In this document: piece after piece, positions 6,486 through 29,526 of the stretch
Layout: each line of letters begins with the position of its first letter
Position numbering within the stretch: the stretch's first letter is position 1
Origin: Promethearchaeota archaeon
GTDB lineage: Archaea; Asgardarchaeota; Lokiarchaeia; Sigyniarchaeales; SOKP01
Length of the DNA stretch: 32,621 bases
Assembly (NCBI GenBank): GCA_016839765.1
Contig: JAEOTP010000044.1
Coordinates: 1-32,621, forward strand
Reading direction: 5' to 3'
Notes under the pieces: generated by a model
Seen by the model: the letters and a program-made list of their open reading frames with translations, nothing else
Database searches by the model: none
What the model was told of the DNA's origin: nothing
Position numbers and translations under genes: made by a program

Positions 6486-7514
6486 ATGTTTTATAAAGAA
6501 AAATGTACAGTCTGCGGAGAGTGTTTATCAAATTGTCCTTATTTATCATACTCAGAAGAGAAAGCGAAAATTGAATTTGAAAAATTAATAAATGGCAATG
6601 AATCTCTAGTGACCTCAGAATGTATTACATGTGCTGCTTGTAATATGTTTTGTCCTGAAGGTGCAAATCCTTTCGATTTAATTAATCAAAGGCAAGAAGA
6701 AACGGGTACTTTTAAAACCACAGATGAATGGTTAGGTATGATGAAAATGGCTTCCCGAATGCCATCCAAAGTGATAAAAGGTGATCCTAATAAACCAACT
6801 TTAAGTTTATGTACTGTTGGTGATATATTACCCGGAGTCATTACAGGTCAGTTATTTAAGGGGTTAACAATCCTAAAAGGGGGAGATTATTTCTGTTATT
6901 TTGGATGGATTCATGGAGGGAAACCCAGTGAGGTAGAAAAGAATGCTCAAAAATTTGTAGATAATCTTGCTAAAACTGGTGCAAAAGAGATAATATTATA
7001 CCATGATGATTGTTATGCAATGTTGGCAAGCAAAGTAAAAGAATTTAACATACAATTACCATTTAAACCAATTCATATTATTGAATATTTAAAAGATTAT
7101 GTTATTGAAAACGAAGATCGGGTAGAAAAATTAGATCTCAAAATTGCTTACCAGCAACCATGTGCATCAAGATATAATTTTGATAAAAATAGAGTATTAG
7201 ATGAGCTTCTTGAACTAATTGGAGTTGAAAGAGTAGATAGAAAATATGATAGAGAGAATGCACTTTGTTGTGCTGGTGTTATTGCATCAATGACTAATAA
7301 ATCAAAAGAAGAAGCGAATGAGTGGAAGATGAAAAATATATTTGATGCGAAAGAAAGTGGCGCTGATGGTTTTGTTTTTCTATGCCCAATATGTGTCCTT
7401 AACCTTAGGACCAGAGCTAAAACCCAGGGGATGGAACCATATATACTGAGTAATCTTGTAAGGTTAGCGCTAGGAGAAACATTAACTCATGGAGGAGCAG
7501 GAAAAATATATTAA
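6486..7514 (+). CDS. HdrD-like iron-sulfur protein (4Fe-4S plus CCG domain)
   Basis: The N-terminus has two classic ferredoxin motifs: C7-C10-C13-C17 and C46-C49-C52-C56, each followed by Pro after the last Cys. The C-terminal half carries a cysteine-rich CCG-type domain: C226 in QQPCASR, C261-C262 in LCCAG and C300/C303 in CPIC. A weaker first half has C176 in YHDDCY. This is the layout of heterodisulfide reductase subunit D and related (Fe-S) oxidoreductases, which pass electrons between ferredoxin, quinol or flavin partners and a thiol or disulfide. No HdrA, GlcD-type flavoprotein or cytochrome is adjacent, so the partner is unknown. The last four bases overlap the end of rad50 on the other strand. 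Confidence 0.85.
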   Translation: MFYKEKCTVCGECLSNCPYLSYSEEKAKIEFEKLINGNESLVTSECITCAACNMFCPEGANPFDLINQRQEETGTFKTTDEWLGMMKMASRMPSKVIKGDPNKPTLSLCTVGDILPGVITGQLFKGLTILKGGDYFCYFGWIHGGKPSEVEKNAQKFVDNLAKTGAKEIILYHDDCYAMLASKVKEFNIQLPFKPIHIIEYLKDYVIENEDRVEKLDLKIAYQQPCASRYNFDKNRVLDELLELIGVERVDRKYDRENALCCAGVIASMTNKSKEEANEWKMKNIFDAKESGADGFVFLCPICVLNLRTRAKTQGMEPYILSNLVRLALGETLTHGGAGKIY

Positions 7515-9622
7515 ACTTGTTCCCTTTTCACTTTTGTCTGATGATTAATTTTTTGGAAGTTGTAGATATCTGTTACAAATGAATCGAGATTTCTATCGTG
7601 AGATATGATAAACATTTGAGTTGTATTGAGTTTCTCAAATATATCTTGCATTTTATTTATTTGTTCTTGGCTAAAACCATCTGTAGGCTCATCTAAAATT
7701 AACAAATCTTTTGTTTTTACTTCCCGATATCTTTCATTGATTATTTTATCTAATGCAAGTCTATATGCCAAAGATAAAGCACTTTTTTCTCCTCCTGATA
7801 GGTCTCTAAATGGTGAGTCATATCCATTTATAATAATAATTGGTTCAAAATCATCCAATCTAATCTCTACTTCTATATTGTCCTCCTCAACTAAGATTCT
7901 AAACCACTCTTTGAAGTGGTCGTTAAATTGTCGCGCACTGGCAGAAATTATTTCTCTTTCAATGTCTCTTATAAGAATTTGAAATTCGTTGGTAATCCAA
8001 CTTCTTAGATTACTTAGATATTCAAGTTTATCTTTAAGGATCTTTCTCTTATTTAGAGCCTTATTTAGCGTTTCTATCTCAGATTTTAATAATTTTAACT
8101 TAGCTTGTTCAATACTTAATTTTTTTTCAATTTCAGATTTTTCTGATTTCACTTTTTTTATGAGTGTTTTTTGAGATACCAATCGAGAATTTAAATTATT
8201 TTCAAATTCTCTGAATTTTTTTAAATCTGTTATATTATATTTTTTTAGTATAGATTTTATTTGTTCTTGATTATTTTCAATTTTATTTTTTAATTGATTA
8301 ATTAGATCTTTTAATTTTGCTTCTCTCTTTCTTTTTTCCTCAATTATTTTTGTTAAAGATTCCTTCTTTGATTGATTAATACTAAAATCTCTTAAATTTT
8401 TTAAATATAATTCAAATTTGCTAATTCTGGAAATAAGGTCTTTAATTTCTTTTGAAAATTGTCCTATTCTTTCATTTATTTCTTTAAGTTCAGAATTAAA
8501 CCTCTCTTTTTCATGTATTTCTTGTCCACATAAGGAACACTTTCCTTCTTTAAGAAGTTTATTGAAATCATTTACTTTTTCATCTAAAATCGCTTTTCCC
8601 TTCTCTTTTTCCGATTGGATTTTTCGAAATTTTCTAATTTGAGTTTCAAGTTGTTCTTCTGTAAAATCACTCTCAAGTTTTATCTTTGGTAAAGTTTTTA
8701 TTTCTTCTTCTGATTTTAAAAATTCATTTTTCAAACTTTGTAAAGATTCGTCATTTTTTTCTTTAGAGAGAGTAGATTCATCAATAATTTGCTGATAATT
8801 ATCTATTTTTACTATTTTTTTTGAATATTCATTTAATTCTGATTGAACTGCCTCAGAATTTCGTTCCCCTATTTCAATTTCCTTTTCCTTATTTTTAACC
8901 ATTTGTTCTATTTCTTTAATTTTTTCTTTTTGCTCATCTTTTTCATTTTCTTTTTCAGGAATCAATAATTCTGGTTCTCCGACAGACTCTAGATAAATTT
9001 TCGTTTCTTTTATCCTGTTGTAAAGGTATTCATTTAAAACACCGACATTCTTAAGGGCAATCTCATATTTTTCTATACCAAAAACTTCTTTTAAGATTTC
9101 AAATCTCTCGTCTGGTCTTGCCTGAAGTATTTCTTTTACCTGTTCTTGGGGCGTATATACAGTATATCGGAATAAGGGAATTTTTTGGGCGTTTTCATAA
9201 CGAGTTATTGAGTAATTTAAAAGTTTCAATATATTTCTTCTCAAATCAGTAGGTGCATATGATATTTCTGAAATATCGTCGCCTAAATATTCAATAATTG
9301 ATCCTTCTTCCTGAGAAATAGTACTTTTTTGATTTTTAATTGTTCTCTTCAAATTCCGTTTGATTGTGTATTTCTTATTGTCAATTGAAAAAGTTAATTC
9401 TACTGATCCTCTATTTTCACCTCTTCTTAGTAACGAATCACCACTTAAATCAGCTGCAGTTAAAGTCCCAAATAATCCAAATTCTATTGCTTTTAAAACT
9501 GAAGATTTACCACTTCCGATATCTCCATAGAAAAGCATCGTTGAAGCAGGGAATGCTAATTCTAAGTGTTTTATGCTTCTGATATTCTCGAGTTTCACAG
9601 ATTCAATAATCATATTAATCAT
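7511..9622 (-). CDS. rad50: DNA repair ATPase Rad50
   Basis: Walker A is GDIGSGKSS (33-41), the ABC signature is LSGGEKSALSLAYRLALDKI near residue 600, and Walker B is DLLILDEPTDGFS. Between them are two charged coiled-coil arms meeting at a zinc hook, C362-S-L-C365. With Mre11 it forms the double-strand-break sensing and resection complex. At 703 residues it is shorter than many archaeal Rad50 proteins, mostly because of shorter arms. It is last in the nurA-herA-mre11-rad50 operon. The first ATG (9622) overlaps the end of mre11 by 8 bases. A second ATG three codons in (9613) fits the family N-terminus (MIIESVKLEN) better. GGAGGG at 9625-9630 is a little too close for the first and a little far for the second, so the start is open. 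Confidence 0.97.
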   Translation of the reverse strand: MINMIIESVKLENIRSIKHLELAFPASTMLFYGDIGSGKSSVLKAIEFGLFGTLTAADLSGDSLLRRGENRGSVELTFSIDNKKYTIKRNLKRTIKNQKSTISQEEGSIIEYLGDDISEISYAPTDLRRNILKLLNYSITRYENAQKIPLFRYTVYTPQEQVKEILQARPDERFEILKEVFGIEKYEIALKNVGVLNEYLYNRIKETKIYLESVGEPELLIPEKENEKDEQKEKIKEIEQMVKNKEKEIEIGERNSEAVQSELNEYSKKIVKIDNYQQIIDESTLSKEKNDESLQSLKNEFLKSEEEIKTLPKIKLESDFTEEQLETQIRKFRKIQSEKEKGKAILDEKVNDFNKLLKEGKCSLCGQEIHEKERFNSELKEINERIGQFSKEIKDLISRISKFELYLKNLRDFSINQSKKESLTKIIEEKRKREAKLKDLINQLKNKIENNQEQIKSILKKYNITDLKKFREFENNLNSRLVSQKTLIKKVKSEKSEIEKKLSIEQAKLKLLKSEIETLNKALNKRKILKDKLEYLSNLRSWITNEFQILIRDIEREIISASARQFNDHFKEWFRILVEEDNIEVEIRLDDFEPIIIINGYDSPFRDLSGGEKSALSLAYRLALDKIINERYREVKTKDLLILDEPTDGFSQEQINKMQDIFEKLNTTQMFIISHDRNLDSFVTDIYNFQKINHQTKVKREQV

Positions 9623-10910
9623 TTCCCTCCTTACCTAATTGAAAGATCTTTTTAAAATTGATTATTAATTCTTCGTCATAGTCTTTTACTTTAGTTCCTT
9701 CTTCTCTTTCCTTACCTAATATCGATAATAAATCATGAGTTTTATTCTCTAAATCTTTTTTATTGATATCTTTAATTTTTATTTTTTGAACATGCTCATG
9801 AATAAGCGTATTTTCTATCTCTTCATTAGTTTTCCCAATAGAAACTCGAATAGAGGTATATTCCCTAGAAGAAAGCGCTACTTTATTAATTAAAACTTCA
9901 TAAGCACCTTTTTGTTTGAGTAATTGGATAATTTCATTAGTTTTAATTTCATATGGTTTGCCAGATGATAAAGTTCCATAAATACGTAGAGTGACAATTT
10001 TGTCTTTCACATTTAGATTATCTATCTTATCTTTCAAAATATTTTTTACTTGTATTGAAGTCTTATTATCACAATTGAAGTCGATACTAATTATTTCTTT
10101 AATTTTTAAGGGAATAAATTTGACATTAAAATCAGCTTCTTGAGTATTATGATTTATATCTCCAGAAATAATGCAAAATCCACCATATTTGTATTTTTCT
10201 AGTTCTCTAAAATTAGTAGGGGTTAATGCTCCAGGATAGATAACTTTAGTTTTTTCTGAAATCCTAATAATAGTTTTTTCTTTTCTTAATTCTGTAGGAA
10301 CAGTTTTGTGAAGATGCCCTCCAGCATAATAATGAAAATTAGATGGCAATAAGGATTTAGGAGCAGATTCCATATCTTTGAATTCAATTGGTTTTAATTC
10401 ATTTAACATCGTGTGCAAGATAAATATCTTAATTCCTTTTTCTTCCTCTAGATTCTTTTTATCTAATATTTTATAATCTTCAATCTCTAGACTACGCTTT
10501 CTTGCTCTTAATCCGGTCAGTTTAATATTAGTTTTCTGATCTAAGGTAAAATTAAGTATTAAATTATCTTCTGGTTTTTCTCCCTGAGAAACATCATTAA
10601 ATAATCCTGCTGTTATTAAAGGTCTAAGCATTGACTTATTTGAAGGAGAAAAATCATGAGAGCCCATAACACCATATACGGGAATTTCATGGTCTCTTAA
10701 TTTTTTTAACTCCTTAACTGCTAAATCTATAACATCTACTTTTGGATTACTAACATCAAAAAGATCTCCACTAATTATTACAAAATCTACTTTTTCTTCG
10801 ATAATTTTGTTAATTGCGGTTTCAAAAGCAAAATACCCCAGGTTATTTAACTTTTCATTTCTCCAAGCACCTAGGTGGCAATCAGCTAAATGTGCAAATT
10901 TTACTTTCAT
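9615..10910 (-). CDS. mre11: DNA double-strand break repair nuclease Mre11
   Basis: This is a calcineurin-like phosphoesterase with the Mre11 motifs in order: D10 and H12 in LADCHLG, D49 in SGDLFD, GSHD at 83-86, the His in LHTMLNE, and GGHLHK. These residues hold the two manganese ions of the 3'-5' exonuclease and endonuclease. The motif usually written G-N-H carries Ser at 84 in place of the metal-binding Asn. The C-terminal part (about 260-431) is the capping and Rad50-binding region, with a helix-rich end. It precedes rad50 with an 8-base overlap, consistent with coupled translation, and follows herA by 49 bases. Confidence 0.96.
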   Translation of the reverse strand: MKVKFAHLADCHLGAWRNEKLNNLGYFAFETAINKIIEEKVDFVIISGDLFDVSNPKVDVIDLAVKELKKLRDHEIPVYGVMGSHDFSPSNKSMLRPLITAGLFNDVSQGEKPEDNLILNFTLDQKTNIKLTGLRARKRSLEIEDYKILDKKNLEEEKGIKIFILHTMLNELKPIEFKDMESAPKSLLPSNFHYYAGGHLHKTVPTELRKEKTIIRISEKTKVIYPGALTPTNFRELEKYKYGGFCIISGDINHNTQEADFNVKFIPLKIKEIISIDFNCDNKTSIQVKNILKDKIDNLNVKDKIVTLRIYGTLSSGKPYEIKTNEIIQLLKQKGAYEVLINKVALSSREYTSIRVSIGKTNEEIENTLIHEHVQKIKIKDINKKDLENKTHDLLSILGKEREEGTKVKDYDEELIINFKKIFQLGKEGND

Positions 10911-10959
10911 ATGTAATAACTTAAATAATATTTTGTTCTATATAAAGAAAAAAAAATAA

Positions 10960-12528
10960 TTATGAGAATCCAGGTGATATTTTCTTTATCTTTTTTTCAG
11001 GTTTTATACTAGCTTTTATCAAATCATCGAATAAAGGAATTATTATTGGTATTGCAAATTTTGTAAAATTAGAGGTAACTATTGCCTCACCGATATCTAA
11101 ACTTGCGATAGTTTGACTATCATCTGATAAATCTTGAGCAGAGCTTTCAATTAAAGTCCGTCGCTCGGGTCCCATTTCATTACCAAGTATTATTTTAGTA
11201 TTCATATTGGCAAGAATTTCTCTAGGTATTAGGCTTGGTAATTGAGTAATTCCAATTAAGCCAATCTTAAATTTCCTCCCCTCTCTAGCAATTTTGCCAA
11301 AGACATTTTCTTTAGCTTCTAATGCTTTAATACCAATAACTCGAGGAGCTTCCTCAAGTATAATTGTTATTACAGGTTTATCTTCTAATCGATCATTAAA
11401 TTTATAATTCTTATATCGATTAAAAATACTCTCAACAATAATAGTAGCAATAAAAATTTCTTCCCTCCCGGAAAATAAGGAGCTATCAATAATTACAGTT
11501 TTTCCATCAATCAAGAAATTAATAATATCTTCAATTGTAGATTCATACCCATTAAGGTAATATATACCATTTTCAATTATATTATCATTATCATCAAATC
11601 CAAAATCAAGTAATAGAGCCAATTTTCTACGTAATACCGATAAAGTAATCGGATTTATTCCATTAGGTAATAGTTCATTTTTATCAAAAATCTTTTGTAT
11701 CCATTCTTTTTTATATAATCTATAATATAAAATAAGGGCATCACTTTGAGGCTGAGAAAGGTCTATACTACCTAAAACATGGCTAGGATAAAGATATTTT
11801 GTATTAAATTTCAAATCAAGTTTTCCAGAAACATTCCTTAATGTATAATATTTTATGAATTTATTACTATTAAGATGTTCCTTAAGACCCTTGACCTTTG
11901 GAGTTCCATAATACTCATTATGAGGATCAAAAACTAATTTTCCACAAGAATCATTTTCAATAATATTATAGAGAATAACCTTAACTAAATTTGATTTACC
12001 TCTACCAGTAGTCGCAGGTATTAAGACATGATGTCGTAGAATTTCAGAAGCGCTAACATTAACATCTATATCTAATGTTTTAGAACCAGACCTAACTTTT
12101 CCTAAAGTAATTGGATCTTCAATACTCATTTCTTTAAAAAAATGTAAATGCTCTTCTCTAATTTCAAATAGATCTCCAAAGAATTGAGGGAGCTTTTTTG
12201 GTAAATATAATCCATTATCTCTAACTTTTATTAGAGGTTTTGCTAATGCTAAAATATAATTTCTCAATTCTGGCTCATATATCTTAAGATCTACACCTTC
12301 TCTCTCTAAACCATATCCCGCAATTAATTCTAAAGAGGTATCTGGAATTTGGCTACCATAATATAGATCCTTAATTTGATATATTGAATAATCATCCTTG
12401 TCCTTTCCAGCTACAAATAATTGCCCTAATTCAAATTCTTCATCAGATTTTTGTCTTAGTATAAGTCTAACAAAAGAACCAGAAACGAAACTTCCGATTT
12501 TTTTTCCTAAATTGGTCATATTAATCAT
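10960..12528 (-). CDS. herA: HerA hexameric DNA translocase/helicase
   Basis: FtsK/HerA-type ATPase. The N-terminal HAS-barrel region covers roughly residues 1-130. Walker A is ATTGRGKSN (172-180) and Walker B is [12 protein letters not shown] near 390. A C-terminal arginine-finger region follows, with [13 protein letters not shown] near 455-470. In archaea HerA forms a hexameric ring that works with the NurA nuclease to resect broken DNA ends downstream of Mre11-Rad50. It follows nurA by only 7 bases, so the two are surely co-transcribed. The first ATG gives MINMTNLG; an in-frame ATG three codons later is also possible. The length is normal for the family. Confidence 0.95.
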
Positions 12529-12535
12529 ACATCTC

Positions 12536-13666
12536 TCATTTTCTTATTTTATTTAGAATATCATGAGCATCTACGGAGCGTAGACGTGGTAATATGAATT
12601 TGTTGAAAATATCCTTGTCAAATTCAATTAATAATTGTATTTTGTAAGATTCGACTTCCTTTTTTGAGATTCTTGCTAATTGGTCTACTTTTATCAAACC
12701 ATATGGATAACCTAAAAATGTAGGATCATTTGAATTATTAGTAATATTAGATATTATAATTTCTCTTTCTTGTTTACTTAAATTGTTAGATTGCTCAATA
12801 TAAATATCAAATCGAAAAGAATAAGGTGAATCCTTATTAAATTTGACAAAGAAAAGATCTGCTTGATTATCAACCCTTGTAATTTTTTTAATCGGGTAAT
12901 AATACCATGGATCTTTAGGAAATTTTGAATTACCTATTAGATTTATTTGGAAATTTAAGGAATCTCCACTTTGGTTTAATAAGCGACATGATTTTGAAAG
13001 TCCTGTGATATAAACATTTTTATTAATCCCTGCGGAATAAACTTCATTAGCTAATCTAATCTCTTTAGGGTAACCAGTTTGTAATGATCCATCTCGAATA
13101 AAAATATCTCCTTTACCCAATTCATTGAGAATAAAGTGTTTTGCATATGTCCACTCAGTAAAGCGCATTGCTATTCCACCATGATTTTCTATCGGCATCA
13201 AAAACTTACCTTGCATTCTAATTGAAGGATCTTTTAAGGGAATCAGTATATCTTCTTGAGGTAGATAATTGCTATAACTACTTTCTTTTGGAAAAAGCGA
13301 AGTTCTAAAAATTATTTCGCCATTACCATTCTTTTCAGAAATGGTTGCTGAATAAAATTCAATAATAGGTGGTAATTTTTCTGGGGCATTTAATTTTTCT
13401 GAATCCAAAATAATTCCAGCAACTCGGCAGATACTAATATTAAAATCAGAACCCTTTATTATAGGTTCAGTACCGCCATCTACAAAACCTAGTTTTCGGT
13501 AATCTTTTACTTCAGGTATTTTGAAAATCCTATCATCAGAAATGACAAAGGCCTTTTCGCCATCTTCAATAGTTAAAGCGGATTCTTCTTCCTTAAAATC
13601 TTTTTTATGATTTTGTATAAATCTTATACAATTACGAAGAGCAGAGAATTTTTCAGTTGTTTTCAT
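12536..13666 (-). CDS. nurA: NurA 5'-3' nuclease
   Basis: This is an RNase H-like-fold nuclease recognisable by D63 in FVDGGTEPI, the [11 protein letters not shown] segment with E171, D192 in [11 protein letters not shown], and the GLSKSCRLL segment. The metal-binding acids of NurA lie in these motifs. It docks on the HerA ring and digests both strands during end resection. It is the first gene of the four-gene repair operon and has its own upstream control region with two TATA-like boxes and an inverted repeat. The length (376 aa) is typical. Confidence 0.93.
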
Positions 13667-20329: not shown

Positions 20330-20752
20330 TTAATTAGGTTCAAATCCCAAATCTATTTTAGTTTCTCCCTTAATTTCAGTTTCTAGAAATTTGACTTTTA
20401 CTGGCATTCCAATATTAATGGTTTCTGGTTTACTTTCTTCTACACCAACAAGTTGTGCTGAAACCATAGGACCTTCTTTAAGTTTAATAATTGAAAAGCA
20501 ATAAGGTCTTTTTCTATCATATCCTTTTTCAATAAAATAAGGTGTTCCTACTGTAATACTTGTAAAAGCTGCCAATTCACCTTTTCCAGACATTTCGACC
20601 CATTCCATGTTAGATGTATTACATTTAGTGCATAATTTTCTTACTGGGACGTATAGTATACCACAATTTTTACATTTTGAGCCCATTAATTTTTTACTTT
20701 GTAAAAATTCTAAATAGCTTTGTATAGTAAAATCTTTATCCATTTCTGACAT
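20330..20752 (-). CDS. DUF35 zinc-ribbon/OB-fold protein
   Basis: Residues near 20-45 carry C-x-x-C (SKCKNCGILYVP) and C-x-x-C (KLCTKC), a rubredoxin-like zinc ribbon. The rest is an OB-fold with GKGELAAFTSI and GMPVKVKF. Proteins of this family act as partners of archaeal acetoacetyl-CoA thiolase, where the DUF35 subunit holds the CoA-channel together. Here it follows the thiolase gene by 16 bases, which strongly supports that partnership. Confidence 0.92.
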   Translation of the reverse strand: MSEMDKDFTIQSYLEFLQSKKLMGSKCKNCGILYVPVRKLCTKCNTSNMEWVEMSGKGELAAFTSITVGTPYFIEKGYDRKRPYCFSIIKLKEGPMVSAQLVGVEESKPETINIGMPVKVKFLETEIKGETKIDLGFEPN

Positions 20753-20768
20753 TTTTAAAATTTCACCT

Positions 20769-22028
20769 CTATTTCTGGTAAATGGTGACTACGCAAGTTC
20801 CACCAGATCCTCCTAAATTGTGAGTCATTGCTTTTTCAACATCAAATTTTACCTGTCTATTTCTTTCTGCAATACCCCTCATCTGTTTGAAAATTTCTAC
20901 TGCCATTCCTGCTCCACTTGCCCCTACAGGGTGTCCTTTACTTTTAAGCCCTCCGGAGGTGTTAATTGGTAGAGCTCCATCTCGTTTTGTTTCTCCATTT
21001 TTTATTGCTTCAACAGCTTTACCTTTTTCATAGAAACCTAAGTCTTCAAGAGCGACAATTTCAGCGATTGTAAAACAATCATGTACTTCACAGATTTCAA
21101 TATCTTTTGGTTTTAAACCAGACATCTGATATGCTTGCCTTGCTGACTCTTTTGTCGCAATAAAAGAGGTTAGTGAATCCCTATCATGTAATGATAAAGC
21201 AGCACTACCTTGACCTGTACCAGTTATCCATATAGGTGTGTCTGTAAAGTCTTTAGCTTTTTCTTCTGATGTTAAAAATAGACATGCCGCTCCATCAGTA
21301 ATTAAAGAACAATCAAATAATCTTAATGGATATGCTATGATTGGGTTAGCAGAACTTTTAAGAAAATCGAACTCATCCGACCAATCAGGAATCTCTCTTC
21401 CTTGTTCTTCATATCTTTTCCTTTTACTTATCATCATATCTTTAATTGATTGTTGCATTTGAGCGTAAGGATTCTCCGCACCATTCTCATGATTTTTAAT
21501 ACCAACCCTCATTAAATCTTCTGCAGTTGTCCCATATTTATGAAAATGTGCTGATGCTAGTGTAGCATATAATCCCGGAAACGTTGCCCCAGCAGGATAC
21601 TCAAATAAACTGTCGGAAGCTGTCGCTAATACGTCAGTAACTCCCGCTGTTGGGAGTTCTGTCATACATTCTACACCACTTACCGCTATTACATCATGTA
21701 TGCCTGAAGCAATTGCAATAATTGCCTGTCTTAATGCTATACCACTACTAGCACAAGCTCCTTCAAATCTAGGTGCTGGCTTTGGCGTTAAACCAACTAG
21801 ATTAGCCATTTGGGGTCCCAAATGTCCTTGATGATTAAATAAATCTGAAGAATAATTACCAACATAGCAGGCATCAATATCTTTTGGCTCAATTCCATTA
21901 TCCACTGACTCAACTGCATTAAGCCAAGCATCAATCCATAAATCAGGATTGCGTTTAACTGGGAAATGATTTCCAAATTTGGACATTCCCGCTCCTACCA
22001 ACGCAACGCCTTTAGCTAATTTTCCCAT
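20769..22028 (-). CDS. Thiolase (acetyl-CoA acetyltransferase / SCPx type)
   Basis: The nucleophile is C92 in EGACASSGIAL, a His lies in EVHDCFTIAE, H366 in GLKSKGHPVGASG, and the C-terminal GGSGGTCVV supplies the third catalytic cysteine. The length (419 aa) is normal. Archaeal members condense two acetyl-CoA at the start of the mevalonate pathway, usually in a complex with DUF35 and HMG-CoA synthase. No HMG-CoA synthase gene is present here. The neighbouring MaoC hydratase, SCP2 protein and CoA-transferases instead suggest use in acyl-CoA breakdown or synthesis. AAAAGGTAC about 6 bases before the ATG can serve as ribosome binding site. A 128-base divergent region separates it from the hydratase. 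Confidence 0.92.
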   Translation of the reverse strand: MGKLAKGVALVGAGMSKFGNHFPVKRNPDLWIDAWLNAVESVDNGIEPKDIDACYVGNYSSDLFNHQGHLGPQMANLVGLTPKPAPRFEGACASSGIALRQAIIAIASGIHDVIAVSGVECMTELPTAGVTDVLATASDSLFEYPAGATFPGLYATLASAHFHKYGTTAEDLMRVGIKNHENGAENPYAQMQQSIKDMMISKRKRYEEQGREIPDWSDEFDFLKSSANPIIAYPLRLFDCSLITDGAACLFLTSEEKAKDFTDTPIWITGTGQGSAALSLHDRDSLTSFIATKESARQAYQMSGLKPKDIEICEVHDCFTIAEIVALEDLGFYEKGKAVEAIKNGETKRDGALPINTSGGLKSKGHPVGASGAGMAVEIFKQMRGIAERNRQVKFDVEKAMTHNLGGSGGTCVVTIYQK

Positions 22029-22156
22029 TTTTTGTACCTTTTATTTGTTTTTAATTAATTTAAAAAAATTAATAAATTGAATTGTTGACTTTTTTTATTT
22101 CTTTTTCTTTCACTTAATAGTTAATATTTTTATCTATTTTTTCATTAGTTGAATTT

Positions 22157-22591
22157 ATGTCAAAATTAGAACTAGTTAAATGGGAAGATTATAAAGTAGG
22201 AGATTCAGCAGAATTTACTAAAACTATAACCGAAGAGGATGTAATGAAATTTGCAGAAGTGACTGGCGATTACAACCCTATACATGTTGATCCCGAATAT
22301 GCAAAAACTCAGATGTTTGGGAAACAAGTTGCACATGGTGCTCTAAGTTCTGGTTTAATTTCAGCTGTTTTAGGCACTAAATTGTTTGGACCAGGTATTT
22401 TATATGGTGGACAGACTGTTAAGTTTATTAAACCCGTGTTTTTTGGCGATACATTAACCGCTGTTGGCACAGTGAAAGAAAAGTTCACTAAAAAGGATGG
22501 TAAATTAAAATTCATTATATGTGATACAATAGTAAAAAACCAGAATGATGAAGTTGTAACATCTGGAGAAGGAACAATAGTATTTATGTAA
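22157..22591 (+). CDS. MaoC-family (R)-enoyl-CoA hydratase
   Basis: Hot-dog fold protein of 144 aa with the hydratase-2 motif: D38 and H43 in VTGDYNPIHVDPEYA, then VAHGALSSGLIS and the strand GGQTVKFIKPVFFGD. The Asp/His pair hydrates a 2-enoyl-CoA to the (R)-3-hydroxyacyl-CoA, or the reverse. It is divergent from thiolase-DUF35, so the three may share regulation and act on the same chain. No ribosome binding site is evident. Confidence 0.92.
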   Translation: MSKLELVKWEDYKVGDSAEFTKTITEEDVMKFAEVTGDYNPIHVDPEYAKTQMFGKQVAHGALSSGLISAVLGTKLFGPGILYGGQTVKFIKPVFFGDTLTAVGTVKEKFTKKDGKLKFIICDTIVKNQNDEVVTSGEGTIVFM

Positions 22592-22673: not shown

Positions 22674-24335
22674 CTAATAATCTACTTTTAAATCTTTTAT
22701 ATCAATGATTCTTTTCTCGCATTTTTTTAGGATTAAATCATGAATTTTATTAACATTTTCCTTAAATTTAAAAGGAACAAAATGTACTCCTAACCTTGAT
22801 TTTAAAAGCGGAGGTATATGATCTGGACTAAAGAACACAGGAATAATAGGTATTTCCATACTATCCGCCGCTGTCCATTCCTTTGTGACGGGTTTAGATT
22901 TTAATGCATGAGGAGAACAAAATAAGAGCATCACATCACATTTACCCAGATTCTCATCCATATATTCAAAAATATTATCTTTCATATCCTCTTGCCAATA
23001 AAGAACTTTTTTTATGTCATTATAAGTAGTCAGGATTTCTGAAATTTCTTTAATTTTAAACCAATCAGCATCTTTAGTTGCATAACTAACAAAAACTAGT
23101 AGCTCTTCACTAACCGAAATTTTAGATATACTAGGAGTTTCAGCGGTTTTGAATATAATTTCATTATTTTGAATTTCTGCATTTAGTTCTCCTTTAAGTA
23201 TCATCTCTTCAATTAGTTCTTCAATTTTTTTAAGTTCTAATCCAGTCTTTGAAGATAAATTATCAAATTTGATTCCTCTATGCGTTTGTAATATTCTGTT
23301 CTTAATATATTTATTAAACTCATTTTTAATAACAATATCTTTAAAAGGGAAATTCGGAACTTTCCACTCTGCAACTTCTAAGTCTTTAACATAATCGATA
23401 ATTTGGCTGGTATAACTATTATCATATAATATACTTCTTAAAGGTAAATAATTATAAACATAAAGAATGAAATCTTTCATTTTTCTTAAAGCGAAAGGAG
23501 CATTATTATAGATTTCTTTATCCATTAATTTAATAACTGGTCGAGATTCAAAATGTGCTATGCCTAATTCATAAAATACGTTTGGATCTGGGAATGTTAA
23601 GATTGCAATGCACAAATCCATGGTTAACATTGCCTCATACACTTGATCAGATAATAATTTTAGTCTTTGTTCTGATAATAATCTGAATGCTCGTTCAGAT
23701 AATAACCCTGGTTCTGATGGAGTCTCAGTAGATTTAAAATCAAAAATTGTGTAAGGGTTCATACCACACTTTTTCAATGCAGGTTTAATAATATAATTGA
23801 TAACATCATCAACATGATTTCTCAGATTTGATCCTTCATGTCCTATAGGCCTGATTATATAACATTTCTTCATATTTTCTTTTTGAAAAGGTTTTAAACC
23901 TTTTATTTTCTGGATTTTTTCGAAACTAAATGGTTGAGATGCTTCCCAATTGTTTTTTTCAACGTGCTTGACCCTTTTAACAATTTCTTTAATAACAGTC
24001 TCAACATTCAACTCAGTTACGTCATTTACATCGTAAATAACACTGTATTCATTATTGAGGTAAAAAGGAAGGGATTCTCCTTTTGCCTTCAGAAAAATAA
24101 GTGGTCTACCTGCACATTTGGCAATTGCAGTTTGGTAATATAATAATGGGTGTTTTCTTGAATGAACTATGATACATAAGTCATAGGTGGGTATTAAATT
24201 AAACACTTCATTAGTCATTTTAGGTGCTTGGAACGTTTCTATACCACATTCTTGTATTGCCGGCTTGATAATGTGATTAAAAACTTGATCATATCTATTT
24301 ACTCGGTATGGACTTATTACAAAGCATTTAGGCAT
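22674..24335 (-). CDS. Multidomain TIR protein with two deoxyribosyltransferase-like domains
   Basis: The domains are: residues 1-120, a nucleoside-2-deoxyribosyltransferase-like domain (CFVISPY, then YDLCIIVHS, LLYYQTAIAKCAGRPLIFL); 157-300, a second copy (CYIIRPIGHEG, then MDLCIAIL, PNVFYELGIAHFESRPVIKL); about 330-400, a winged-helix or PCI-like segment (RGIKFDNLSSKTGLELKKIE); 411-540, a TIR domain (LLVFVSYATKDADWF, VLYWQED, CDVMLLFCSPHALKS, and E486 in TKEW as candidate NADase glutamate). In the second copy D240, N252 and E256 match the family's active-site pattern. In the first the Glu is Gln68. TIR domains often cleave NAD or make NAD-derived signals in immunity. This architecture suggests nucleotide sensing or processing coupled to a TIR effector, but function is inferred. 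A 24-bp tandem repeat lies at residues 207-231. The gene is monocistronic by layout. Confidence 0.85.
   Translation of the reverse strand: MPKCFVISPYRVNRYDQVFNHIIKPAIQECGIETFQAPKMTNEVFNLIPTYDLCIIVHSRKHPLLYYQTAIAKCAGRPLIFLKAKGESLPFYLNNEYSVIYDVNDVTELNVETVIKEIVKRVKHVEKNNWEASQPFSFEKIQKIKGLKPFQKENMKKCYIIRPIGHEGSNLRNHVDDVINYIIKPALKKCGMNPYTIFDFKSTETPSEPGLLSERAFRLLSEQRLKLLSDQVYEAMLTMDLCIAILTFPDPNVFYELGIAHFESRPVIKLMDKEIYNNAPFALRKMKDFILYVYNYLPLRSILYDNSYTSQIIDYVKDLEVAEWKVPNFPFKDIVIKNEFNKYIKNRILQTHRGIKFDNLSSKTGLELKKIEELIEEMILKGELNAEIQNNEIIFKTAETPSISKISVSEELLVFVSYATKDADWFKIKEISEILTTYNDIKKVLYWQEDMKDNIFEYMDENLGKCDVMLLFCSPHALKSKPVTKEWTAADSMEIPIIPVFFSPDHIPPLLKSRLGVHFVPFKFKENVNKIHDLILKKCEKRIIDIKDLKVDY
23645..23716. 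repeat. 24-bp tandem repeat inside the TIR gene
   Basis: Three consecutive 24-base units (23645-23668, 23669-23692, 23693-23716) share the core GATAATAA and, on the coding strand, TTATTATC(A/T)GA(A/T)C. They encode the in-frame octads LLSERAFR, LLSEQRLK and LLSDQVYE. The unit is a multiple of three, so copy-number change would keep the frame and lengthen or shorten a helix before the second enzyme-like domain's core. Confidence 0.75.
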
Positions 24336-25403: not shown

Positions 25404-25946
25404 TTAATATTCTATACCTAATCGAGCATTTATTCCCTTAGAAGCATAATAATGCTTTATCATTCTCATTTCTGTTAATAGATCAGCCCTCTCTTTTATT
25501 TTCGGATGCATATTTGGTCCCCCAGTTAAAATTAATTCGACTTTTTCTGGCTTTTTTCTTATTAATTTTAATACTGCCTCAACTTCAAGTAATCCATACG
25601 TGATTGCAACACCTATCTCATCCAAAATGACAATATCATATTCATCACTCATAATTATTTTTTCTGCAAACTCTAAGGCTTTCTTAGCTTGCTCGTAATC
25701 GATATCCCTTGGTTCACTAATTAAATCTGGAGTACCAAATTGTTTCACTTCAAAATTAGGTGTATTTTTGATTGATTCTAACTCACCATACCGATAGTCA
25801 CCTTTCATAAATTGTACCATATATACTTTAAAACCATGTCCAATTGCTCGGAATCCTTGTCCTAAAGCGGCTGTAGTTTTACCCTTCCCCCTACCAAAAT
25901 ATACTTGAATAAATCCTTGCTTTAACCTTTTTCTATTGGAACTCAT
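25404..25946 (-). CDS. cobO: Cob(I)alamin adenosyltransferase, CobO/BtuR type
   Basis: The P-loop GRGKGKTTAALGQGFRAIGH follows the opening IQVYF strand. Also typical are VYMVQFMKG, then YDIVILDEIGVAITYGLL with the Walker B-like DE, and the closing LTGGPNMHPKIKERADLLTEM. The enzyme moves the adenosyl group from ATP to cobalt, giving adenosylcobalamin, needed by mutases and some ribonucleotide reductases. The length (180 aa) is normal. AAGGA six bases before the ATG fits as a ribosome binding site. It stands alone, with no corrinoid synthesis gene next to it. Confidence 0.94.
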   Translation of the reverse strand: MSSNRKRLKQGFIQVYFGRGKGKTTAALGQGFRAIGHGFKVYMVQFMKGDYRYGELESIKNTPNFEVKQFGTPDLISEPRDIDYEQAKKALEFAEKIIMSDEYDIVILDEIGVAITYGLLEVEAVLKLIRKKPEKVELILTGGPNMHPKIKERADLLTEMRMIKHYYASKGINARLGIEY

Positions 25947-26060: not shown

Positions 26061-26828
26061 ATGGGAAATTTTGAAGAATTAAGTAATAAAATAAATAAAT
26101 ATCTACGATTATCCACTTTTCCGGTGGGAGTAAAATTATTAGAAAATACAGAAGAGTTAAATACCATAAAATTCTTAAAAAACCCAGAAAAAAAACTAGC
26201 TATTTGTCAGATTTTCAGCTATGCCAGATATTATGGGTGGACTATGGGTTGCACTAAAGAAGATAATTTATGCCCACTCGCCGGAATATCTCTTGGGTTA
26301 GAAGAATCTTATAGATTATTTGAAGAAGGAGCTTTTTTCGTAGGTAGATATAATGAAACTAAAGAAGCCGCCATAAAAACAACAACCTCAATGCCTAAGT
26401 TACCATTTGGTAAATTTTCTGCTATTCTAGCTGGTGCTTTACACCGTATCGATTTCACACCAGATTTAATATTAATTTGGGGAAATTCTGCTCAAATAAT
26501 GAGAATTATTCAAGGATATCTATGGAAAAAAGGCGGGAGAGTCTCAATGTCAACATTCTGCGACGGAGTGTGTGCAGATACTATTTCAAATGCATTGATT
26601 ACAAAGGATTTACAAATAGCTTTTCCTTGCCTTGGTGATCGCCGATTTGGCATGGCATTAGATTCAGATTTAATAGCATCTATACCAATAGAACTTATTG
26701 ATGAGATATTAGAAGGAATAGAGAAAACCCACAAAGCAGGTACGAGATATCCAATACCATACCAAATATCAACTCCAGAGTTTTTTATGAAGTTGAAAGA
26801 ACAATTAGATAAGGTCGAAAAGAATTAA
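26061..26828 (+). CDS. DUF169 family protein
   Basis: The recognisable segments are FPVGVKLL near the start, CQIFSYARYYGWTMGCTKEDNLCPL with three cysteines, then PFGKFSAILAGALHRIDFTPDLILIWGN, and later CDGVCADTI and the end segment FPCLGDRRFGMALDSDLIASIP. This is the DUF169 pattern of archaea and anaerobic bacteria, of unknown activity. The conserved cysteines suggest a metal or redox role. It lies 90 bases upstream of the CoA-transferase-like cluster on the same strand, so it may belong to that operon. The length is typical. Confidence 0.85.
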   Translation: MGNFEELSNKINKYLRLSTFPVGVKLLENTEELNTIKFLKNPEKKLAICQIFSYARYYGWTMGCTKEDNLCPLAGISLGLEESYRLFEEGAFFVGRYNETKEAAIKTTTSMPKLPFGKFSAILAGALHRIDFTPDLILIWGNSAQIMRIIQGYLWKKGGRVSMSTFCDGVCADTISNALITKDLQIAFPCLGDRRFGMALDSDLIASIPIELIDEILEGIEKTHKAGTRYPIPYQISTPEFFMKLKEQLDKVEKN

Positions 26829-26918: not shown

Positions 26919-27761
26919 ATGCCTTTAAGGGAGGCAATCTCTACTTACGTTCAAGATGGCGATTTGGTTGGATTAGGAGGGCTTTCTTTTTGGAGAAAAC
27001 CAATCAGCGCTTGTAGAGAGATAATTAGACAAGAAAAGAAAAATTTATCAGCATGTACATTTGTGGGCGGAATTGATATAGATATGCTTATAGCCGGAGG
27101 GTGCATCTCAGAAGTAAGAAGTTGTTTTGTAGGAATGGAAACATTTGGTATGGCTCCGCATTATAGAAAAGCTGTTGAATCTGGTAAGGTGAAGATTTCC
27201 GAGGAAAGTGAAGCTACGATTGCTTTAGGATTAAGAGCGTCTTATTTAAAAACACCTTTTATGCCTTTAAAGGGGATAATAGGAACTGACTTTCCTAAAG
27301 TAAGAGATGATATTAAACAAATAGAAGATCCCCTTGGGTCAGGAACTCAAGTAATGGCAGTTCCTAAAATAGATCTAGATGTTGCAATTTTGCACGTACC
27401 TTATGCTGATGAAATTGGAAACGGTAATATTGCCGGTGCTGTGTGGATGGATGATGATATGGCAAAAACAGCAAAAAAGACGATTATTATATGTGAAAAA
27501 TTAGTGGAAACTGAAGATATCCGATACTTACCTGGGAAAGCTCAATTACCAATGCAGACAACCACAGCTGTAGTAAAATCTCCTTTTGGAGCTCATCCTA
27601 CTAGTTGTTACCCTATATATACTTTTGATCCTCTTCATATTCAAGAATATCTTAAAATGGATTTTGAAGATTATAAGAATAAGTTTATTATAGATAAAAC
27701 TCCAGTACAATATCTTGAACAAACAGGTGGAATACAAACCATTTTTAACATATTATTATAA
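26919..27761 (+). CDS. CoA-transferase-like alpha subunit (GctA/IpdA family)
   Basis: Family I CoA-transferase fold, with MPLREAISTYVQDGDLVGLGG at the start and RKPISACREIIRQ and LSACTFVGG following. The middle has VGMETFGMAPHYRKAVESGKV with E95, E96 and E98 just after it, then LKTPFMPLKGIIGTDF. The C-terminus ends in the usual AHPTSCYPIYTFDPLHIQEYL. The family includes glutaconate CoA-transferase subunit A and the IpdA subunit of a ring-opening hydrolase. Upstream codons in frame (IRESKL) look like the usual family N-terminus but sit behind a TAA and lack ATG/GTG/TTG, so the true start is unclear. It is followed after 44 bases by the nitroreductase gene and then by the beta subunit. Confidence 0.87.
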   Translation: MPLREAISTYVQDGDLVGLGGLSFWRKPISACREIIRQEKKNLSACTFVGGIDIDMLIAGGCISEVRSCFVGMETFGMAPHYRKAVESGKVKISEESEATIALGLRASYLKTPFMPLKGIIGTDFPKVRDDIKQIEDPLGSGTQVMAVPKIDLDVAILHVPYADEIGNGNIAGAVWMDDDMAKTAKKTIIICEKLVETEDIRYLPGKAQLPMQTTTAVVKSPFGAHPTSCYPIYTFDPLHIQEYLKMDFEDYKNKFIIDKTPVQYLEQTGGIQTIFNILL

Positions 27762-28644: not shown

Positions 28645-29526
28645 ATGAGTGCAGATTCAGAAGATTATACTATAGATGAGATAATGACAGTTTTAATGGC
28701 AAGAGAAGTACGAAATGATGATGTTATGATTGTTGGAGTTGCAACTCCAATGGTATGGGCAGCATTTACATTAGCAAAATTAACCCATGCCCCTGATGCA
28801 ATTTATCATTACATTATGGGAAATACATTTGTCATGGAACCCCGACAAGTATCATTACTGTATTTTGAAATGAATACTGCAAGGGCTTATAGATTTCAAA
28901 ACTCAGTTGAATGTACATTAGAATCCCTTCCCTCTGATAAACTTACTACAATAGAGTTCTTTAGACCTGCTCAGGTTGATCAATATGGAAATACCAATAA
29001 TATCTGCATAGGTGATTGGTCCAAACCCAAAATTCGTCTCCCTGGATGTGCGGGAATAGCTGATTTTAGCATGTTTTATAAGCGAGGTTCTTTTTTATAT
29101 ATTCCTCGACATGATACTAGAACTTTTGTACCAACAGACAAACTTTTTTTTATCTCTGGTGTAGGATTTCCTGATGGTAAGCCTTCTATATGCGGTGGTT
29201 CCGGTCCTAAGTGTGTAATAACTAATTTAGCTTATTTAGATTTTGATGATGATACTAAAAGAATGAAATTAGGAGCTATTCATCCTGGCTTTGACCTTGA
29301 AACTGTAAAAGAATCAACGGGATTTGAATTAATTATCCCAGATAAGTTGAAAGAAACAGTACCACCAACATTAAAAGAAATTAAATTGCTAAGAAAAAAA
29401 GTTGATCCATTGAACATTAGGAAATTGGAAGTTCTTTCTGGGCCAGAGAGAGAGGAATTATTAGATGAAATAATTCAAAAAGAATTAAAAATGGAGATAA
29501 AATATCCTAAATTAATAATACAATAA
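28645..29526 (+). CDS. CoA-transferase-like beta subunit lacking the usual Glu
   Basis: The GctB/COG2057 fold shows in VGVATPMVWAAFTLAKLTHAP near residues 30-50, in QVDQYGNTNN, in IRLPGCAGIADF, and in the late IPRHDTRTFVP and HPGFDLETVKESTGF. In typical members the strand after THAP ends Y-E-S-G, whose Glu forms the CoA thioester. Here it reads Y56-I57-M58-G59, so the acid is missing at the position matching Glu54 of Acidaminococcus GctB. This resembles what is described for IpdB, whose complex hydrolyses a ring rather than transferring CoA. AAGAGGT before the ATG is a good ribosome binding site. It is last in the cluster. Confidence 0.85.
   Translation: MSADSEDYTIDEIMTVLMAREVRNDDVMIVGVATPMVWAAFTLAKLTHAPDAIYHYIMGNTFVMEPRQVSLLYFEMNTARAYRFQNSVECTLESLPSDKLTTIEFFRPAQVDQYGNTNNICIGDWSKPKIRLPGCAGIADFSMFYKRGSFLYIPRHDTRTFVPTDKLFFISGVGFPDGKPSICGGSGPKCVITNLAYLDFDDDTKRMKLGAIHPGFDLETVKESTGFELIIPDKLKETVPPTLKEIKLLRKKVDPLNIRKLEVLSGPEREELLDEIIQKELKMEIKYPKLIIQ

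Follow-up and report, generated by a model that had tools for sequence, protein, structure and literature searches.

From the sequence, phylogenetic and genomic-context evidence assembled here, we propose that two neighbouring genes of a Lokiarchaeial genome encode the alpha and beta subunits of a heteromeric enzyme that has the class I CoA-transferase fold and most likely hydrolyses CoA esters in the manner of IpdAB; the pair probably constitutes a new sister family to IpdAB, in a clade of its own, and is of a known enzyme kind. Both genes lie in the window, by which we mean the whole 32,621-nt stretch analysed (Promethearchaeota archaeon, Lokiarchaeia; contig JAEOTP010000044.1 of assembly GCA_016839765.1, forward strand). 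The GctA/IpdA-like alpha subunit (280 aa) is encoded upstream, at 26919..27761 (+), and the GctB/IpdB-like beta subunit (293 aa), which lacks the nucleophilic Glu, at 28645..29526 (+); a gene for a nitroreductase-family flavoprotein (PF00881; 27806..28603, +) separates the two, and its recurrence beside such pairs suggests that its product may be their partner. The CoA_trans domain (PF01144) was found above the Pfam cut-off in both subunits, and in beta it is the sole domain, with a weak match that still exceeds that cut-off (E 1.5e-8, 34.7 bits); no NCBIfam model matched alpha or beta. No second PF01144 pair was found in the window genome, which is 96% complete. The closest solved relatives are those of glutaconate CoA-transferase (GctAB, 1poi), for alpha (1poi_A, 1.6e-40, against 1.8e-25 for IpdA 6co6_A) as for beta (1poi_B, E 1.1e-27), with IpdB and AibB also among the nearest structures of the latter.

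In true transferases of this fold, a Glu of the beta subunit attacks the acyl-CoA and is converted first to an anhydride, afterwards to a glutamyl-CoA thioester, with a Gln, Asn or His of the alpha subunit adjacent to it. The beta open reading frame of the window instead reads T47-H48-A49-P50-D-A-I-Y-H-Y56-I57-M58-G59-N60, so that the nucleophilic Glu expected of class I CoA-transferases after the THAP strand is absent and Ile57 (codon 28813..28815, +) stands there. The first-pass annotation, which had read Y56-I57-M58-G59 as the loss of the catalytic Glu, is borne out by this reading and by the pairwise, profile and multiple alignments, all of which place Ile57 on GctB Glu54; the same column holds CtfB Glu46 and AibB Cys56, the residue varied among the mutant structures 5n00-5n03. 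Its further proposal, that loss of this acid is a feature shared with IpdAB, agrees with the published correspondence of glutaconate CoA-transferase Glu54 to IpdB Gly57 (PMC5380842). Among the Asgard beta orthologs (53-89% identity; a sample of 82 pairs, in which certain loci were fetched twice), the site reads IMG, LMG or HMG and never contains Glu. Ile57 is thus no sequencing or assembly oddity, and the loss of the beta Glu is fixed in the Asgard orthologs sampled. Paralogs with an ordinary E-A-G or E-S-G motif were found in the same phylum, so the contrast at this position is real. Other beta residues are specific to the clade (T34, R107, N119, Y152), and Arg107-Pro108 (codons 28963..28968, +) replaces the G-G/A that transferases have in the strand preceding Q-x-D. 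A structure model of beta built from 43 relatives (pLDDT 90.5), which replaced a poor model from 11 close sequences (pLDDT 55.8), has a strand at 53-56 followed by a loop opening at Ile57, as expected of the nucleophile position; a Foldseek search with this model scored 1poi_B, IpdB and AibB about equally and did not separate the three. We also considered whether another Glu of beta might occupy the thioester position. As checked by sequence, a further acid near the site, Glu75, was set aside: its column, although the alignment nearby is gapped, is Asp in 34 of 41 beta-Glu transferases, so Glu75 does not resemble a moved nucleophile.

The alpha subunit departs from class I CoA-transferases in the complementary position. 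There residue 98 is non-acidic, mostly Asn, His or Gln, whereas the window protein has Glu98 (codon 27210..27212, +), which we propose as the catalytic base. Glu98 shares its column with the Glu of IpdA that was changed to Ala in the mutant chain 6coj_A (VREMDEG versus VREMDAG), and the role of IpdA Glu105 is presumed here from that mutant chain. According to chain numbering and alignment, the column also holds the Gln of GctA and Gln98 of Thermosipho CtfA. CtfA Gln98 hydrogen-bonds both the catalytic beta Glu46 and bound acetate (PMC12400318); given these contacts and the shared columns, alpha 98 and beta 57 lie opposite one another in this fold's active site. Both Glu95 and Glu98 had been singled out for inspection. 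Glu95 is ruled out as a relocated acid, being Glu or Asp in all classes, and Glu98 is the diagnostic one. Besides Glu98, the window alpha subunit shares with IpdA the residues P80, G104 and A147, which are rare in transferases (the G104 column is Arg in 32 of 41), as are P108 and R259, common to the window beta subunit and the IpdB orthologs.

The two diagnostic positions are mutually exclusive. Pairs were drawn from Asgard genomes, one bacterial/archaeal genome scan, three further phylum samples and plasmids, giving 246 pairs (207 non-identical) from four phyla plus plasmids. Among the 207, none has both Glu residues, 105 have the beta Glu only, 85 the alpha Glu only and 17 neither; alpha 98 in the beta-Glu pairs is Asn, His, Leu, Gly, Val or a gap, and Glu in 0/105. 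After dereplication at 62% identity, the 78 remaining rows (GctAB and AibAB references included) show the same exclusion, with 0 for both, 42 for beta only, 21 for alpha only and 15 for neither. The Fisher p of the exclusion is 1e-9, a figure that ignores kinship. On the tree, the residue labels need just a few changes, and an independent-branch coupling test had 2 pairs only; the coupling, though strong, goes back to a small number of events, and a clash between two facing Glu residues could suffice to produce it. One separate lineage (L194, L284, L052) likewise has the alpha Glu and lacks the beta Glu. Two bacterial pairs, from Nocardioides JS614 (L155:3944-5685) and Xanthobacter Py2 (L156:3899-5721), have Val in beta and Cys (SCC) in alpha and adjoin phosphosulfolactate synthase (coenzyme M) genes; by their residues they would form another class without the beta Glu. 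In L236-L240 and L250, which belong to the same phylum as the Bathyarchaeota locus L134, beta 57 is unaligned and alpha 98 is Cys, which likely makes them a further non-transferase class.

Phylogenetic analysis of the joined alpha and beta sequences, with both diagnostic columns masked, placed every sampled beta-Glu pair in one clade (100/100). The window pair belongs to a clade (96/89) that includes Lokiarchaeia, Helarchaeia, Jordarchaeia, Clostridia, Aneurinibacillus, Chloroflexota, Bathyarchaeota and a Simplicispira plasmid; the family spans Asgard archaea, Bathyarchaeia, Chloroflexota and Bacillota. This clade joins the IpdAB orthologs (from Novosphingobium, Vibrio and Burkholderia plasmids) at 94/92, and the resulting group is then joined by four further Asgard pairs at 98/96. 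A single clade uniting the window pair with the beta-Glu pairs is rejected (AU p = 0.0135), whereas one uniting IpdAB with the beta-Glu pairs is not (p = 0.17). The comparison with IpdAB that had been suggested at the outset therefore places the window pair with these orthologs and apart from the Glu-bearing transferases, but with an identity of only ~28% between the alpha subunits, a long IpdAB branch and the latter p value, kinship with IpdAB is likely rather than proven.

The resemblance to IpdAB, the COCHEA-CoA hydrolase of steroid C/D-ring catabolism (6co6, 6co9, 6coj, 6con), nevertheless has its limits. Both pairs lack the beta Glu, carry a Glu at alpha 98 and share the residues listed above. 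The window beta subunit, however, has a longer loop after residue 59 than the IpdB orthologs, the host is an archaeon and presumably an anaerobe, and ipdC, echA20 and steroid genes, all looked for around the window pair, were not seen there. The IpdAB loci L152 and L154 are flanked by genes for nitronate monooxygenase, enoyl-CoA hydratases and acyl-CoA dehydrogenase, which do not flank the window pair. From GctAB, with which it shares the fold, the length, the best E-values and the QxDxxGN motif, the window pair differs by Ile for GctB Glu54, Glu for the GctA Gln and R-P for the beta G-G. The acetoacetyl-CoA transferases CtfAB, AtoDA and SCOT have the same fold with matching columns at CtfA Gln98 and CtfB Glu46, but retain the beta Glu and the alpha Gln and are much more distant.

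The neighbourhood of the pair is that of acyl-CoA catabolism in Lokiarchaeia, with genes for thiolase, MaoC, B12 adenosyltransferase, MeaB, acyl-CoA mutase, acyl-CoA dehydrogenase and ETF. In the window, a DUF169 (COG2043) protein is encoded upstream of the pair (26061..26828, +), preceded by a CobO-type cobalamin adenosyltransferase (25404..25946, -) and by an acyl-CoA gene group (20330..22591) consisting of an OB/zinc-ribbon protein (20330-20752, -), a thiolase (20769-22028, -) and a MaoC hydratase (22157-22591, +). Each of 53 Asgard species genomes contributed one locus; alpha lies close to beta in 49 of these loci, and the pair is accompanied by the CobO adenosyltransferase in 28, DUF169 in 24, nitroreductase in 23, MeaB in 18, thiolase in 16, the OB partner of thiolase in 14, MaoC in 14, the B12-binding subunit in 12 and the acyl-CoA mutase in 12; synteny is common to related species, and these counts therefore overstate independence. 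The Lokiarchaeial locus L104 adds an AMP-ligase, an acyl-CoA dehydrogenase, both ETF subunits and an SDR. In Aneurinibacillus, the pair lies amid genes for an SDR, thiolase, 3-hydroxyacyl-CoA dehydrogenase, AMP-ligase and acyl-CoA dehydrogenase, and hydantoinase/carboxylase-like genes. The Chloroflexota loci have no acyl-CoA genes beside the pair and give no pathway clue, with a peptidase, transporters and a tRNA ligase there instead. The large subunit of an AdoCbl-dependent acyl-CoA mutase is encoded near Lokiarchaeial pairs (L105:7902-9578, -; L104:12567-14270, -), with three homologs in the window genome (one at G000:C79:4502-6172). Its nearest relative is 2-hydroxyisobutyryl-CoA mutase (4r3u), and the Arg characteristic of methylmalonyl-CoA mutase is missing from it (QNDILTMTVGY versus QNDILKEFMVR). 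Ten Lokiarchaeial loci (L098:6118-9997, L087, L094, L101, L102, L107, L114, L117, L118 and L123) contain, directly upstream of beta, a block of genes for an ACT-domain protein, homoserine dehydrogenase, threonine synthase and a HAD phosphatase; the block stands between alpha and beta in nine of them, and no alpha was found in L094.

With Ile57 in place of the beta Glu, beta cannot form a covalent glutamyl-CoA intermediate, and alpha Glu98 is the remaining candidate for an active-site carboxylate. It would act as a general base, either activating water or deprotonating C-alpha. The substrate would be a CoA ester, perhaps a cyclic one, that carries a keto group close by and is split at a C-C bond. 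IpdAB hydrolyses the ring of COCHEA-CoA, likewise cleaving a C-C bond (PMC5380842). General-base hydrolysis of a CoA ester is thus proposed on two analogies, with IpdAB and with the E46D variant of CtfB; water as the attacker and the type of substrate are inferred, and the bond broken is probably C-C rather than the thioester. Cleavage of the thioester itself, with water activated by Glu98 freeing CoA and the acid, appears rather unlikely. One carboxylate base does suffice for it in this fold, as CtfB E46D hydrolyses acetoacetyl-CoA while having lost transfer, and E46S is dead (PMC12400318); but the nearest characterised enzyme with the same arrangement of residues, IpdAB, cleaves a C-C bond (PMC5380842), and hydrolysing thioesters would presumably waste energy in an anaerobe. 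We consider it less likely still that the pair is a true CoA-transferase in which the nucleophile has moved, alpha Glu98 forming the acyl anhydride and glutamyl-CoA from across the pocket. Occupying the place of CtfA Gln98, which is in contact with the catalytic Glu as well as with the acid substrate, Glu98 could reach the thioester, and replacement of one carboxylate by the other would also give mutual exclusion. IpdAB, however, which has the same arrangement and no beta Glu, showed no transferase activity toward acetyl-, propionyl- or succinyl-CoA (PMC5380842), and the G-G/A of the beta strand is R-P in the window clade.

Of the readings that do without hydrolysis or transfer, a decarboxylase like AibAB (3-methylglutaconyl-CoA decarboxylase, 5mzw) is improbable. 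AibAB has also lost the beta Glu, has a similar fold score and is among the nearest solved relatives through AibB, and replacement of AibB Cys56 by Ala, Ser, Asn or Val keeps activity (PMC7756340), so that Ile could be tolerated in this column. Yet AibA has Gly where the window alpha subunit has Glu98, and AibAB lies beyond a supported branch (98/96), though its own branch is long. That the pair is catalytically dead, or has a regulatory or scaffold role, would accord with the loss of the defining nucleophile and is the least credible reading, given that alpha Glu98, like many further residues, does not vary among the archaeal and bacterial members and that the two genes are kept together in 49/53 Asgard loci. 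For the preferred reading, an IpdAB-type hydrolase, the initial suggestion of a hydrolase or lyase misnamed as a CoA-transferase stands in part: the missing beta Glu, the match of Glu98 to the IpdA Glu, the grouping with IpdAB and the neighbours acting in CoA-ester catabolism all speak for it, with cleavage of a ring as a mere possibility.

More speculatively, the pair may belong to an undescribed family of CoA-ester C-C hydrolases in Asgard archaea, Bathyarchaeia, Chloroflexota and Bacillota, now annotated as CoA-transferases, which in Lokiarchaeia could take part in a B12-mutase route of acyl-CoA degradation for branched, cyclic or isoprenoid-derived acids. Misannotation of the family as CoA-transferase is probably widespread. 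Metabolic models of Asgard archaea would take such genes as CoA-transferases and thus assume an activation step that costs no energy. Should the pair be a hydrolase, the reaction entered in these models is wrong, and a candidate step for breaking carbon bonds is added to the metabolism of Lokiarchaeia. With the columns of beta 57 and alpha 98, members of a large and easily mis-annotated family can be assigned to transferases, to IpdAB-like enzymes or to further classes, so that errors of annotation can be tested directly in many phyla.

Elsewhere in the window, a 553-aa protein encoded at 22674-24335 (-) has a TIR domain at its C-terminal end. Four genes form an operon-like run at 7511-13666 (-). 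Three encode a HerA-type helicase, a calcineurin-like (Mre11-like) phosphoesterase and a Rad50/SMC-like ATPase; the product of the other (12536-13666) has no Pfam match and, from its position alone, could be a NurA-type nuclease.
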